Shown in pieces: positions 26,434-30,652 of a stretch of DNA of 38,152 bases. Each line of letters begins with the position of its first letter. The stretch's first letter is position 1. The stretch covers positions 1 through 38,152 of the forward strand of contig CANQED010000018.1 of assembly GCA_947594425.1 (NCBI GenBank), read 5' to 3'. Source of the DNA: an uncultured Ruminiclostridium sp. Lineage in GTDB: Bacteria; Bacillota; Clostridia; Oscillospirales; Ruminococcaceae. The notes under the pieces are model-generated. The model searched no databases and was not told the DNA's origin. It worked only from the letters and a program-made list of their open reading frames with translations. Position numbers and translations under genes: made by a program.

Positions 26434-26552
26434 AGCATTTTCTCCTTAATATAAGTAAATTTTCGGTCGGCGTGATGTACAGCGACCGTATGGTAAAATA
26501 GCAGCATATTTTTACTAAAAAACAACCCTTTATGAAAAATTGCAAAAAGCAC

Positions 26553-26581
26553 TTGACAAAACCTTTACGATGTGCTAAAAT
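26553..26581 (+). promoter_or_regulatory. promoter of tRNA-Arg
   Basis: TTGACA (26553-26558) and TAAAAT (26576-26581), 17-base spacer. Confidence 0.7.
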
Positions 26582-26608
26582 ATTTAATTGTGATAGCAAA
26601 TCAGACAC

Positions 26609-26685
26609 GCGCCAATAGCTCAGCTGGATAGAGTATTTGGCTACGAACCAAAGGGTCGGGGGTTCGAATCCCTCTTGGCGTGCCA
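26609..26685 (+). tRNA. tRNA-Arg (ACG)
   Basis: Cloverleaf: acceptor GCGCCAA/TTGGCGT, D arm GCTCAGCTGGATAGAGT, anticodon stem TTTGG/CCAAA with loop CTACGAA (anticodon ACG, read as ICG), T arm GGGGGTTCGAATCCCTC. CCA is encoded. Own promoter and terminator. The solitary cas3 region begins directly after it. Confidence 0.95.
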
Positions 26686-26691
26686 GTGAGT

Positions 26692-26741
26692 AAAACGCTT
26701 TAAACCGCATTATATAAGGGTTTTAAAGCGTTTTTCTTTTT
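26692..26741 (+). terminator. terminator of tRNA-Arg
   Basis: AAAACGCTTTAAA (26692-26704) pairs with TTTAAAGCGTTTT (26722-26734), followed by a T-rich tail. Confidence 0.8.
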
Positions 26742-26811
26742 GTAAAAAAGCTACAACGGGTATAATTTTTTGCCAAAAATCCGGGTTTTTTAAAAATGCC
26801 CGCCTAAACGC

Positions 26812-26840
26812 TTGACGAAAAATAGTGATATTTGTATAAT
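26812..26840 (+). promoter_or_regulatory. promoter of the double-HD mini-gene
   Basis: TTGACG (26812-26817) and TATAAT (26835-26840), 17-base spacer. The same arrangement recurs before cas3. Confidence 0.75.
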
Positions 26841-26865
26841 ATATTATGATAGTAAGGAGGTAGAA

Positions 26866-27180
26866 ATGAATTACATTGCGCACAAAAAAGACGGCAGAGA
26901 GCAGACCGTAAAGGAGCACCTCGAGAACACCGCCGTGCTTGCGAGTGACTTTGCGGTGGACAAGCTTAAAGGTATAGCGTATACCTTGGGGCTCACGCAC
27001 GATATAGGAAAGTACTCGCAGGATTTTGCGGTGGACGAGTTTAAAGGTATATCCTATACCCCGGGGCTCATACACGATATAGGAAAATACGCGCAGGCGT
27101 ATCGGGACCGCATTTTGCACGACAGCTTTAAAAAAAGTAAAGACCGGTACAATTTTTTCAAAAAATCAATATTTTTATGA
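26866..27180 (+). CDS. double-HD mini-protein derived from the Cas3 N-terminus
   Basis: 104 residues from the ATG at 26866 with a strong AAGGAGG site. Residues 1-50 are nearly identical to the start of the Cas3 encoded downstream. The segment D-F-A-V-D...H-D-I-G-K-Y-x-Q (75 bp, 25 residues) is then present twice in tandem (26947-27021 and 27022-27096), so the protein has two HDIGK motifs. A short match to Cas3 (RILHDS) follows before an unrelated lysine-rich tail (FKKSKDRYNFFKKSIFL). It lacks the later histidines of the HD nuclease and all of the helicase, so it cannot be a full nuclease. It may be a decaying duplication product or a small regulator. Promoter, site and frame are all intact. 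Confidence 0.6.
   Translation: MNYIAHKKDGREQTVKEHLENTAVLASDFAVDKLKGIAYTLGLTHDIGKYSQDFAVDEFKGISYTPGLIHDIGKYAQAYRDRILHDSFKKSKDRYNFFKKSIFL
26947..27096 (+). repeat. 75-bp in-frame tandem repeat (HD motif segment)
   Basis: Two adjacent 75-bp units, 26947-27021 and 27022-27096, each encoding DFAVD..KGI.YT.GL.HDIGKY.Q. The units differ at scattered positions, so the duplication is not brand new. Confidence 0.9.
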
Positions 27181-27443
27181 AAAAATGCCCGTCAAAACTC
27201 TTTACAAAAATAAATGACGTATGTATAATATTAAGATAGTAAGGAGGTAGATATGAATTACATAGCGCACAAAAAAGACGGCAGAGAGCAGACCGTAAAG
27301 GAGCACCTCGAGAACACCGCCGTGCTTGCGAGGGACTTTGCGGTGGACAAGCTTAAAGGTATAGCGTATACCTCTGGGCTTATACACGATATAGGAAAGT
27401 ACGCGCTCTCTTTTCAGGATCACATTTTGCACGACAGCGCGGT
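27181..27443 (+). repeat. right copy of the duplication (functional cas3 start)
   Basis: Second copy of the unit described at 26791-27133. This copy continues into the full-length cas3 gene. Confidence 0.85.
27201..27229 (+). promoter_or_regulatory. cas3 promoter
   Basis: TTTACA (27201-27206) and TATAAT (27224-27229), 17-base spacer; paralogous to the promoter at 26812. Confidence 0.75.
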
Positions 27444-29460
27444 AAAATACGAGCACGCGACCCCCGCCGCTATAGAGCTGGGCGAGCTAAAATTGGACCC
27501 GCGCGAAAAGAAGCTGCTGTATATGTTGCAATACTGCGTTATGGGACATCACACGGGACTGCCCGACGGCGGCAGCAACGTAGACCCAAAAGACGTGGGT
27601 ACTCTTATCGGTAGGCTGAAAAGAAAGTCGAATTATACCAAAAGAAACGACTACAGCGCATATAAGGACGAGATAAAGATAACCTTTCCCGATATATCCA
27701 AGCTCTCAGAATTGCTAAGCGAGGGCGGTATCAATGAAAAAAATCGCGAGTATATAGAAAGATACGCATTTTTTACCCGATACCTTTTCTCCTGCCTTAC
27801 GGACGCGGATTTTCTCGATACCGAGAAGGTTTTCACACCAGATATAGACAGAGAGTTAAAATTTGATTTTGATACGGCGGCGCTCTTGCTCGATAAGCAC
27901 GCCGAGAAATTTCCGCAAGACACCGAGCTGCAAAGGTCAAGGGCACGCCTGCTTAATCAAGCGCTGAATAATTTTTCACATGCGGAAAATATCAGCATAT
28001 TAAGTATGCCGACAGGCAGCGGAAAGACCTATTGCAGCCTAAAGCTCGCTTTTGAAAAGCTGAAAACCTCCGGTAAAAGGCGCATTATTTACGTTATCCC
28101 CTACACGAGCATAATCGAGCAGACCGCTAAGACTATGCGTGAGATTTTCGGGGACAGCGTGGATATTTTACAACACCATTCAAATTATACCTTTGAAAAA
28201 GATGAAAATGATGAAAAGTATAAAAAGGAAATCGATAAAGAGGTTTTGACGGAAGAAAAGCTGCGCCGTTCGACCGAAAACTGGGACGCGCCGATAATAG
28301 TTACCACTAATGTGCAATTTTTTCAATCGGTGTACAATTATAAAAGCTCCGCGCTGAGAAAGATGCACAATTTGGCGGACTCGGTGTTAATCTTTGACGA
28401 GGTGCACCTGCTTCCGATAGAGCTGCTCCAGCCCTGTCTTAGGGTGATAGGCTATATCACGAGGTACTTAAACAGCTACGCGGTGTTTCTTTCGGCGACA
28501 ATGCCCGATTATTCAAAGCTGATACAAGCGTATATGCCCGGCTGCCAATTTACCGAGCTTATCACGGATAAATCGGACTATGCTTATTATAAAAAATGCA
28601 CCTATCACTTTTTAGAGAATACCGATTATCAAAGCGTCGCGGAGCTGTCGCAGCAGTATAAGACAAGCCTTATTGTTGTAAACAAAAAGAAGACCGCCAA
28701 AGAGGTATACAAAATGCTCAGCGGGAACAAATTTCACCTGTCTACATATATGACGCCCGCTCACCGTACAAGTGTCATTGCCAAGATAAAAGACTGCCTT
28801 AGTAAGCAAGAGCAAGTCACTGTGGTTTCTACCTCGCTTATCGAGGCGGGAGTAGACCTTGATTTTAAAGCGGTATTCAGGGAGATAGCGGGGCTGGACA
28901 ATGTTCTTCAATCGGGAGGAAGATGCAACCGCGAGGGTAAAGACGAAAACGGCGACGTTTATATATTTAAGACAGAAGAAAAGCAAAGCAGCGAATTTGA
29001 GTCCCGCGGAAAAATAGTAGAGGAGCTGATCACGTCAGGAGAGGATATTTCCTCCGATAGTTCGATAAAGGAATACTATTGCAGACTTTTTGACAATTAC
29101 CATAAAGATATAGATAAAAAGTCGATATTCACCGAGCAGGTCTCCCTAAACACTATCCCCTTTCGCAAATACGCAAAAGCATTCAAGCTTATCGACAAGG
29201 AGAGCACCAGCGTAGTCATAAATAACTGTGACGAGGCCGACAAGGCATTGAATAAGCTCAAAACAGACAGAATAAAAGGCCTGCGCGCATTGCAGCCGTA
29301 TTCCGTCTCGCTGCGCAACCGGGAATTTGATTGTGCTGTTAAAACGGGAATTATCCAAGAATACGCGGATGGGGTCTTTGTTTTGACCAACAATGATTAT
29401 TATGACAGCGAAACGGGGCTTGTTTTCGATGTGACGAATGATATGATAGTATCAAAATAA
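27253..29460 (+). CDS. cas3: solitary CRISPR-associated helicase/nuclease Cas3
   Basis: 735 residues with a strong AAGGAGG site. The N-terminal HD nuclease has its metal ligands in order: His18, His45-Asp46 (LIHDIGKY), His68 (KYEHATPA) and His99-His100 (MGHHTGLPDGG). The superfamily 2 helicase part has P-loop MPTGSGKT (252-259), DEVH (382-385), SAT (414-416) and motif VI QSGGRCNREG (from 553). The closest known architecture is Cas3 of type I systems, perhaps I-C. In a working system Cascade recruits Cas3 to cut and unwind target DNA. Here no cas5, cas7, cas8, cas1/2 or repeat array is found within the window, so partners must be elsewhere or the protein has another role. It lies directly after tRNA-Arg with its own promoter and terminator. 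Confidence 0.92.
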   Translation: MNYIAHKKDGREQTVKEHLENTAVLARDFAVDKLKGIAYTSGLIHDIGKYALSFQDHILHDSAVKYEHATPAAIELGELKLDPREKKLLYMLQYCVMGHHTGLPDGGSNVDPKDVGTLIGRLKRKSNYTKRNDYSAYKDEIKITFPDISKLSELLSEGGINEKNREYIERYAFFTRYLFSCLTDADFLDTEKVFTPDIDRELKFDFDTAALLLDKHAEKFPQDTELQRSRARLLNQALNNFSHAENISILSMPTGSGKTYCSLKLAFEKLKTSGKRRIIYVIPYTSIIEQTAKTMREIFGDSVDILQHHSNYTFEKDENDEKYKKEIDKEVLTEEKLRRSTENWDAPIIVTTNVQFFQSVYNYKSSALRKMHNLADSVLIFDEVHLLPIELLQPCLRVIGYITRYLNSYAVFLSATMPDYSKLIQAYMPGCQFTELITDKSDYAYYKKCTYHFLENTDYQSVAELSQQYKTSLIVVNKKKTAKEVYKMLSGNKFHLSTYMTPAHRTSVIAKIKDCLSKQEQVTVVSTSLIEAGVDLDFKAVFREIAGLDNVLQSGGRCNREGKDENGDVYIFKTEEKQSSEFESRGKIVEELITSGEDISSDSSIKEYYCRLFDNYHKDIDKKSIFTEQVSLNTIPFRKYAKAFKLIDKESTSVVINNCDEADKALNKLKTDRIKGLRALQPYSVSLRNREFDCAVKTGIIQEYADGVFVLTNNDYYDSETGLVFDVTNDMIVSK

Positions 29461-29474
29461 TATGGGATAAAATC

Positions 29475-29515
29475 CGGGGCGCGCCCGAAACGGACGCGCC
29501 CCGATTATTCTTATA
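29475..29515 (+). terminator. cas3 terminator
   Basis: CGGGGCGCG (29475-29483) pairs with CGCGCCCCG (29495-29503); ATTATTCTTAT follows. Confidence 0.7.
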
Positions 29516-29717
29516 AAAAATAAAAATAATTTCAACTCACTGCTTTCGCAGACTATAACCTCACCAAAATAGTAATAAGGCAAATAAGCAAACCGTTGTG
29601 GTAAATACAGTTCGCCGCTAATAGTACTATACTATTTTTGGCTTTTTGCCAAACAAATTTAAATTTTACGATATTAAACTTTTGAAAAAATTTTTAATTA
29701 TATCAATTAAAAAACAG
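29516..29717. other. AT-rich intergenic stretch
   Basis: The gap between cas3 and tRNA-Met. Apart from the cas3 terminator and the tRNA promoter I see no gene, repeat array or RNA structure here, only AT-rich sequence with short imperfect hairpins (for example TTTTTGGCTTTTTGCCAAA near 29634). Confidence 0.5.
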
Positions 29718-29746
29718 TTGACAAGTACCGAAGAATATGCTATAAT
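29718..29746 (+). promoter_or_regulatory. promoter of tRNA-Met (and tRNA-Glu)
   Basis: Consensus TTGACA (29718-29723) and TATAAT (29741-29746), 17-base spacer. Confidence 0.85.
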
Positions 29747-29763
29747 AATTAGGTCGTTGATAT

Positions 29764-29840
29764 GGCGGTATAGCTCAGTTGGCTAGAGCACTTGGTTCAT
29801 ACCCAGGGTGTCGTTGGTTCGAATCCGACTACCGCTACCA
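29764..29840 (+). tRNA. tRNA-Met (CAT), elongator type
   Basis: Acceptor GGCGGTA/TACCGCT, D arm GCTCAGTTGGCTAGAGC, anticodon stem CTTGG/CCAGG with loop TTCATAC (CAT), T arm GTTGGTTCGAATCCGAC, encoded CCA. Paired first base and overall sequence fit elongator Met rather than initiator. Confidence 0.93.
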
Positions 29841-29848
29841 TGCGATGT

Positions 29849-29875
29849 GTGTCGGACAATAGCCCGACACTTTTT
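29849..29875 (+). terminator. terminator-like hairpin abutting tRNA-Glu
   Basis: GTGTCGG (29849-29855) pairs with CCGACAC (29864-29870), followed by five T. The next base is the first of tRNA-Glu, and no promoter lies between. It may be a leaky terminator or a processing spacer. Confidence 0.6.
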
Positions 29876-29950
29876 GGCCCGTTGGTCAAGCGGTTAAGAC
29901 ATCGCCCTTTCACGGCGGAATCATGGGTTCGATTCCCGTACGGGTCACCA
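29876..29950 (+). tRNA. tRNA-Glu (TTC)
   Basis: Acceptor GGCCCGT/ACGGGTC, anticodon stem CGCC/GGCG with loop CTTTCAC (TTC), T arm ATGGGTTCGATTCCCGT, encoded CCA. The 3' end is repeated at 30627-30652. Confidence 0.95.
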
Positions 29951-29953
29951 GCA
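29928..29953 (+). repeat. att-like repeat, copy at the tRNA-Glu 3' end
   Basis: 26 bases covering the T arm, acceptor and CCA of tRNA-Glu plus GCA. Matches 30627-30652 at 24 of 26 positions, in direct orientation. This is the usual crossover region of tRNA-targeting integrases. Confidence 0.75.
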
Positions 29954-30170: not shown

Positions 30171-30623
30171 TTGAAAATAATAAGTTTTTATAAAAGCGAA
30201 AGGCAGAGTTATTGGCTTAATGAAATAGGAAAAAGCGATTGGAGAGCCGGAGCATATTTACATCAAATATTAAGCAACGACACTTTTTACGATGTTGTGG
30301 GTGAAGGTTCTGAATTGCTTTTGCTTACGGACGGAGATGAACTTGTTTCATTCTGTACATTTGCAAAGAGAGATGAGATCATATCAACAGAATATTCTCC
30401 TTGGATAGGCTTTGTATATACTTTTCCTCAATATCGTGGGCATAGATATATGGGGCTGCTATTTCAGAAAATTGAATCTATGGCTAAAGATAATAACATA
30501 AATAAAATATTTATATCGACAGATCACATTGGTTTATATGAAAAATACGGATTTGAGTACATAAAACAAATGGAAAGTATTTATGGAGGATCATCAAGAG
30601 TATATGTAAAACAAATCAAGTAA
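30171..30623 (+). CDS. GNAT family N-acetyltransferase
   Basis: 150 residues, starting with TTG at 30171 with AGGAG nine bases upstream. The acetyl-CoA binding region appears as IGFVYTFPQYRGHRYMGLLFQKIE (about 83-106), with the R-G-H-R-Y-M-G form of the Q/RxxGxG/A loop, and YEKYGFEYI is the typical C-terminal strand. The substrate is unknown. The gene is clearly more AT-rich than the backbone genes and lies between two copies of the tRNA-Glu 3' end, so it was probably brought in by site-specific integration. No integrase is present. Confidence 0.85.
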   Translation: MKIISFYKSERQSYWLNEIGKSDWRAGAYLHQILSNDTFYDVVGEGSELLLLTDGDELVSFCTFAKRDEIISTEYSPWIGFVYTFPQYRGHRYMGLLFQKIESMAKDNNINKIFISTDHIGLYEKYGFEYIKQMESIYGGSSRVYVKQIK

Positions 30624-30626
30624 CAA

Positions 30627-30652
30627 TTCGATTTTCGTACGGGTCACCAGCA
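30627..30652 (+). repeat. att-like repeat, distal copy of the tRNA-Glu 3' end
   Basis: Direct copy (24/26) of 29928-29953, differing by CC to TT in the T arm. It starts three bases after the GNAT stop codon and is not part of a second tRNA gene. Confidence 0.75.

Follow-up and report, generated by a model that had tools for sequence, protein, structure and literature searches.

In the type I-C CRISPR system, an anchor loop mediates binding of Cas3 to Cas8, and the metal ligands of NlaCas3 are H8, H25, H52, D53, H118 and H119 (PMC11417383). CreR cas-regulating RNAs, as three papers present them (PMC12737573, PMC13131331, PMC12948488), carry a guide that partly matches a cas promoter; they are placed in types I-B, I-E and V-A (PMC13131331) or more broadly in type I as a whole and V-A (PMC12737573). 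In a literature search on partial cas3 duplications and on solitary, second or truncated cas3 genes, judged by titles and the beginnings of abstracts, no paper was recognised as describing the present case. Here we describe a type I-C-like cas3 whose start is copied in tandem, and the remains of the locus around it. The window that we analysed is an entire contig of 38,152 bp from a 2.6-Mb genome (99.95% complete, 0.2% contamination).

Repeat anatomy and divergence ahead of cas3

The features of the duplicated region are as follows.
26744–26842, plus strand: copy 1 leader with its promoter (–35 TTGACG at 26812, –10 TATAAT ending at 26840), 25% divergent from copy 2
26866–27180, plus strand: mini-ORF of 104 aa, copied from part of cas3 and containing HDIGK twice, absent in 8/8 relatives (ORF call)
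26947–27021, plus strand: module A, the first unit of the internal 75-bp repeat, codons 28–52 (repeat search, self-BLAST)
27022–27126, plus strand: module B, codons 53–87, homologous to cas3 codons 28–62 and 84% identical (repeat search, self-BLAST)
27127–27180, plus strand: mini-ORF tail, 17 codons and a stop, from the duplicated non-coding leader (27131 onward is homologous to 26744 onward)
27201–27229, plus strand: promoter-like site of cas3, copy 2, TTTACA-17-TATAAT (promoter scan)
27253–29460, plus strand: cas3, HD nuclease and helicase, 735 aa, open, an orphan gene (NCBIfam cas3_core and cas3_HD above cut-off)

A repeat search of the window identified units at 387- and 75-nt spacing, the former being the tandem copy of the cas3 start directly 5' of cas3. 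Self-BLAST of the window aligns 26744–27019 with 27131–27406 (86% over 279 columns, E 5e-88), 27021–27126 with 27333–27438 (84%, E 4e-26) and, as the internal repeat, 26947–27022 with 27022–27097 (86% over 76 nt, E 5e-18). A chance origin of these repeats is excluded. The internal 75-bp repeat is in frame, resulting in two HDIGK motifs in the mini-protein, and the 104 codons of the mini-ORF (26866–27180) contain zero internal stops. The last 17 residues of the mini-protein (88–104) are translated from the copied non-coding leader and have no cas3 origin. Both copies carry promoter-like sites scoring 11/12 (26812–26840 and 27201–27229), and a GGAGG ribosome site precedes both the mini-ORF and the cas3 ATG.

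A preliminary description of this DNA had proposed a duplicated cas3 promoter and start that encodes a 104-residue open frame, and this is borne out by the ORF call, self-BLAST and the 387-nt spacing. Its in-frame duplication of a 25-codon HD segment inside the first copy is likewise confirmed by the 75-bp repeat and the two HDIGK motifs, and its signals are intact, with two promoter-like sites at 11/12, GGAGG before both ATGs and a frame free of stops. The proposed extent of about 390 bp agrees with the 387-bp spacing, but the proposed start at 26791 does not hold, as homology begins at 26744, about 47 bp further upstream. The first 50 codons do belong to the copied part, but module B extends the homology to cas3 codon 62.

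The repeats show an initial step in which a segment of about 387 bp, reaching from the leader of cas3 to around codon 62, was duplicated in tandem, such that reading into the next leader yielded the 17-residue tail of the mini-ORF. They also show a second step, in which an in-frame 75-bp duplication flanked by the repeated stretch GAYTTTGCGGTGGAC generated the two HD modules. The front part of the copy was probably homogenised with the cas3 start afterwards.

Divergence between the copies is patchy. Upstream of 26843, the two leaders differ at 23 of 92 sites with four additional indels (25%), codons 1–50 of the mini-ORF differ from cas3 at 7/150 sites and codons 1–40 at 2/120, and module B differs from cas3 at 17/105 sites with zero indels. 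By Fisher's test, codons 1–50 are distinct from both the leader (P = 9e-6) and module B (P = 0.004), with P = 0.16 for the leader versus module B. Later homogenisation with the cas3 start is the simplest explanation of the near-identical tract, which extends from 26843 to around codon 40, given that codons 1–40 lie beside a leader diverged by 25%; the low synonymous change within this tract would speak against protein selection as its cause. Modules A and B share CTC at codon 43 and CAG at codon 52, where cas3 differs, suggesting that the internal repeat was probably born inside the copied segment.

The closest database Cas3 is 96% identical to the window Cas3 (733 aa, on a 2767-bp contig) and identical to it over residues 3–149, and the next matches stand at 66% and below among the best 120 of 7976. 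These two Cas3 variants (P0001 and P0006) differ in dense patches at about residues 507–521 and 693–731, and this patchiness suggests allele mixing at the cas3 locus.

In one alternative, module B would be left over from a different cas3 allele of greater divergence, with module A and the promoter derived from the present cas3, so that the copy would be the scar of an allele replacement and not of a simple tandem duplication. Module B is indeed further from cas3 (17/105) than module A (7/150), with many synonymous differences, and it keeps the commonest residues A53 (53/120) and R57 (108/120) where the window cas3 has S and H (best 120 of 7976); the closest database Cas3 also differs from the window Cas3 in patches. 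However, the CTC(43) and CAG(52) shared by A and B against cas3 are as expected from a duplication inside the copy, and H57 also occurs in two relatives (L052 and L053), so that R57 in module B may be a new change. We give this explanation only a slim chance. An assembly artefact is hardly credible: two of the relatives are metagenome assemblies and the window genome may be one too, but the copies differ by about 5–25% plus indels and hence are not one sequence assembled twice, and they lie in a 38-kb contig of a genome with the high completeness and low contamination given above.

The mini-ORF can probably be transcribed and translated, and the sole likely effect of the copy would be a second promoter reading through into cas3, no terminator being found between them. 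In another alternative, the extra promoter or leader cistron, and not the protein, would be what is kept, transcription from the first promoter reading through the mini-ORF and raising or uncoupling cas3 expression. Two promoter-like sites at 11/12 each, and the absence of any plus-strand terminator in a scan of 26440–29800, are consistent with this explanation, but the leader is the most diverged part of the copy (23/92 sites, four indels), and we consider it unlikely.

Our preferred reading is a non-selected recombination by-product. Further duplications occur in the window among small genes (32051–32543/34682–35134, 35791–35921/36235–36365 and 30711–30779/31314–31381; 71–92% identical), and one of them sits in HicB-like antitoxin genes; these other partial duplications count for the by-product reading of the mini-ORF.

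Relatives, the orphan cas3 and a CreR-like relic

We searched 71 genomes of the genus, one per species and including the window genome, and found window-type cas3 at E <= 1e-100 in nine, that is, in eight relatives. A second copy of the cas3 start occurs in 0/8 of these relatives in the DNA around cas3, covering at least 421 bp upstream, with the first 70 cas3 residues as query; retention of the mini-gene, which the preliminary description had put forward as a check in related strains, is not seen in any of these eight relatives, each from another species of the genus. Two extra 18-residue matches in relatives (E 0.5–0.6) were regarded as chance, and among Cas3 pattern matches in genomes (21) and viral contigs (6), none is a relative by tblastn. 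In one relative (G028, locus L051), and only there, cas3 has an early in-frame stop at codon 86 of the match, pointing to cas3 decay there too; the cas3 stop in G005 is the normal gene end.

Beyond the duplicated region, the locus and its counterparts comprise the following features.
26609–26685, plus strand: tRNA-Arg(ACG), left neighbour of the duplication (ARAGORN, Rfam)
29474–29504, no strand assigned: GC-rich hairpin 3' of cas3, terminator-like on the minus strand (terminator scan)
29510–29554, minus strand: CreR-like relic made up of a short hairpin, the 3' end of a CRISPR repeat (GTGAGTTGAAAT) and a guide seed, 44/45 identical to G072
29764–29950: tRNA-Met/tRNA-Glu, on the far side of cas3
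L055, 11053–11097; L050, 10794–10831; and L054: CreR-like elements between cas3 and cas5 in relatives

The window Cas3 scores 148.5 against cas3_core (cut-off 102.45) and 84 against cas3_HD (cut-off 43.45), and is homologous to NlaCas3 of type I-C (E 8.6e-82). When the window ORFs were compared with the cas genes of the relatives, cas3 was the sole match, and a simple scan detected no CRISPR array in the window. No close cas7 or cas8 was found in the window genome: identity reaches only 36% and 29% for the two best cas7 matches and 25% for cas8, and these matches belong to two other CRISPR loci. By comparison, cas3 of the relatives sits with type I-C cas5, cas8 and cas7 (assigned by profiles for G072 and by BLAST for the others), and the cas5c–cas8c–cas7 neighbourhood that is missing at the window cas3 is present in relatives, for example at L055. 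In six of the eight (G005, G028, G033, G067, G072 and G082), cas5 is directly 3' of cas3, although the G033 contig ends early in cas8 and the gene order of G082 is taken from ORF sizes only; in G035, cas5 is on the cas3 contig but separated, and the G030 contig has only cas3 and an array. The type I-C genes are followed by cas4 and cas1 in G072, G035 and G067, with cas2 in G072 and G035; no cas4, cas1 or cas2 was seen after cas7 in G005, G028 and G082. Comparison with the relatives suggests that the window cas3 is what remains of a type I-C operon that has lost all its other genes at this locus.

The tRNA-Arg gene with its leader is also found in relatives. A scan of ten loci (L071–L080) detected no empty site of the cas3 island, none having tRNA-Met or tRNA-Glu in the flanks covered. 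On the far side of cas3, the 3' end of tRNA-Glu (29928–29953) is repeated with 24/26 identity at 30627–30652, beyond a GNAT acetyltransferase gene (30171–30623), and this pair looks like the termini of a small integrated element.

The relic lies 50 bp past the cas3 stop, where the cas3–cas5 stretch of G072 matches at 44/45 and that of G005 at 37/38 positions, despite Cas3 proteins that are only about 64% identical. Its minus strand runs from a short hairpin through the final 12 bases of the CRISPR repeat to an AT-rich guide, which is followed by a strong hairpin. A CreR-like element was found in three relatives, G072, G005 and G033. In 3/3 of them the guide fits a site just 5' of cas5 that covers the promoter-like sequence; the match runs over 18 positions, of which only positions 6 and 12 are mismatched, and the site is preceded by CTT. 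In a shuffle control, a guide run of 18 occurred in 0/1000 shuffles per intergenic stretch (maxima 14, 15 and 15). Positions 6 and 12 correspond to the spacing of the guide bases flipped out by Cascade. In G033, both guide and target differ from those of G072 yet still fit. The elements at L050, L054 and L055 therefore look like CreR-type self-control, as predicted from sequence, between type I-C cas3 and cas5. No CreR-like element was found in the five other relatives (G028, G082, G067, G035 and G030); cas3 and cas5 are separated by a short gap in G028 and G082 and overlap in G067, whereas G035 and G030 have a different gene arrangement. A 28-nt match to the relic in the G035 array is an AT-rich spacer after a repeat, and guide runs elsewhere in that locus reach at most 9.

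In the window, homology to the element of the relatives stops just past the hairpin, and cas5 is absent after it. The best run of the relic guide against the window is 9, with no target promoter; the runs of 9, one of which lies over the mini-ORF promoter at 26829, were taken as chance in AT-rich DNA, and the one strict relic–target pattern searched for is absent from the window genome. The good preservation of the relic suggests that the type I-C operon was lost recently from the window genome. A more adventurous idea, that a cas3 without Cascade grew its own small two-HD partner from the start of the gene, which regulates or shields Cas3 or lets it act with one of the other two CRISPR systems of the cell, with the CreR relic as a vestige of an older RNA control, is a long shot in our view.

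Selection on the mini-protein

The intact frame of the mini-ORF does not call for selection. In simulations with the observed number of changes placed at random, the frame stayed open in 47% of 5000 runs, and in 65% of 5000 runs with about half the changes, so that an open frame can be put down to chance. At two near-invariant positions, module B carries Y in place of the F of 118/120 Cas3 proteins and R in place of the Q of 117/120, in a comparison set that is the best 120 of 7976 matches of a protein search with the window Cas3. Relative to cas3, module B has 7.5 synonymous changes per 21.8 sites and 9.5 non-synonymous changes per 80.2 sites, and codons 1–50 have 3 per 31.5 and 4 per 118.5, respectively. 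This synonymous excess would fit some constraint, in small numbers, but part of it comes from the cas3 branch, which may account for it. The ratio of synonymous to non-synonymous change, suggested earlier as a check, accordingly shows the excess but does not establish constraint on the mini-protein, as the cas3 path contributes and the numbers are small.

The mini-protein scores 36.9 bits against NCBIfam cas3_HD (TIGR01596), below the cut-off of 43.45, over profile positions 2–49 of 178; against Pfam, it is just above the cut-off for HD (PF01966; 24.6 versus 22) and just below it for Cas3_HD (22 versus 23.1). Its residues H18, H45 and D46 correspond to NlaCas3 H25, H52 and D53, and H6 was matched to H8 by motif rather than alignment, whereas counterparts of H118 and H119 are absent, leaving the metal site incomplete. 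AlphaFold2 prediction from the single sequence gave a mean pLDDT of 55.5, which is of low confidence. A PDB search with the mini-protein gave weak matches regarded as chance, the best being a glycerophosphodiester phosphodiesterase (E 0.017). The protein search recovered its own cluster (two member sequences, one contig) and three short Cas3-start fragments at 53–60%; as the 90% cluster lists two member sequences, a second near-identical copy of the mini-protein may exist elsewhere. Viral contigs contain zero exact matches to the start shared by cas3 and the mini-ORF. In the neighbourhood, purL-like and hicBA genes are among the ten window ORFs scanned with Pfam, and tRNA genes flank the mini-ORF.

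If functional, the mini-protein would act as a competitor or decoy, being a Cas3-HD fragment of two modules able to bind partners of Cas3 or anti-Cas3 proteins. Its open frame, two intact HDIGK motifs, own promoter-like and ribosome sites and the synonymous excess are in keeping with such a role, and Cas homologues are known as anti-CRISPRs (PMC13131331). Set against these are the absence of the copy from 8/8 relatives, the frame expected to be open by chance, the changed near-invariant positions, the low-confidence fold from single-sequence AlphaFold2 and the lack of close cas7 or cas8 in the genome, and we judge this role very unlikely. The same points, including the changed conserved positions, tell against competition for Cas3 contacts and an anti-Cas3 decoy, both raised in the preliminary description, and its third option, a by-product of recombination, is the best supported by the repeat anatomy, the patchy divergence and the absence in 8/8 relatives. 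A function of the mini-protein is possible but unsupported, with no clear sign of selection, and the mini-gene is probably a non-selected recombination by-product in a deleted type I-C locus.

Comparison with known systems

The best reading is that of a confirmed sequence feature with a probably ordinary mechanism, namely a partial tandem duplication, an internal repeat and later homogenisation. The mini-protein is probably unimportant, and it shows that a partial copy keeping promoter, ribosome site and frame can look like a gene. More interesting than the mini-ORF is the orphan cas3 with its CreR-like relic: an open cas3 and a scrap of its regulatory RNA mark the place of a lost type I-C system, and apparent CreR-type self-control in type I-C is seen in three relatives, one of which has joint changes in guide and target.

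Compared with type I-C Cas3 (NlaCas3, PDB 8g9u and 8zns), the mini-protein copies the first 62 residues of the homologous window cas3 but is missing the GHH histidines and the remainder of the HD domain, as well as the helicase and C-terminal domains. Like CreR, the elements described here are predicted to be repeat-like RNAs, each with a guide that fits a cas promoter in part; they differ in belonging to type I-C and lying between cas3 and cas5, and in the window only the relic is left, its target promoter having been lost. The Cas-homologue anti-CRISPRs AcrIB3, AcrIB4 and AcrVIA2 (PMC13131331) resemble the mini-protein in that a Cas piece or homologue is expressed alone, whereas the mini-ORF adjoins its own parent gene and has putative activity only. 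In form, the locus resembles ordinary partial tandem gene duplications, with a direct copy including the promoter, a truncated frame and other partial copies in the window; the extra in-frame internal repeat and the probable later homogenisation set this locus apart from them.
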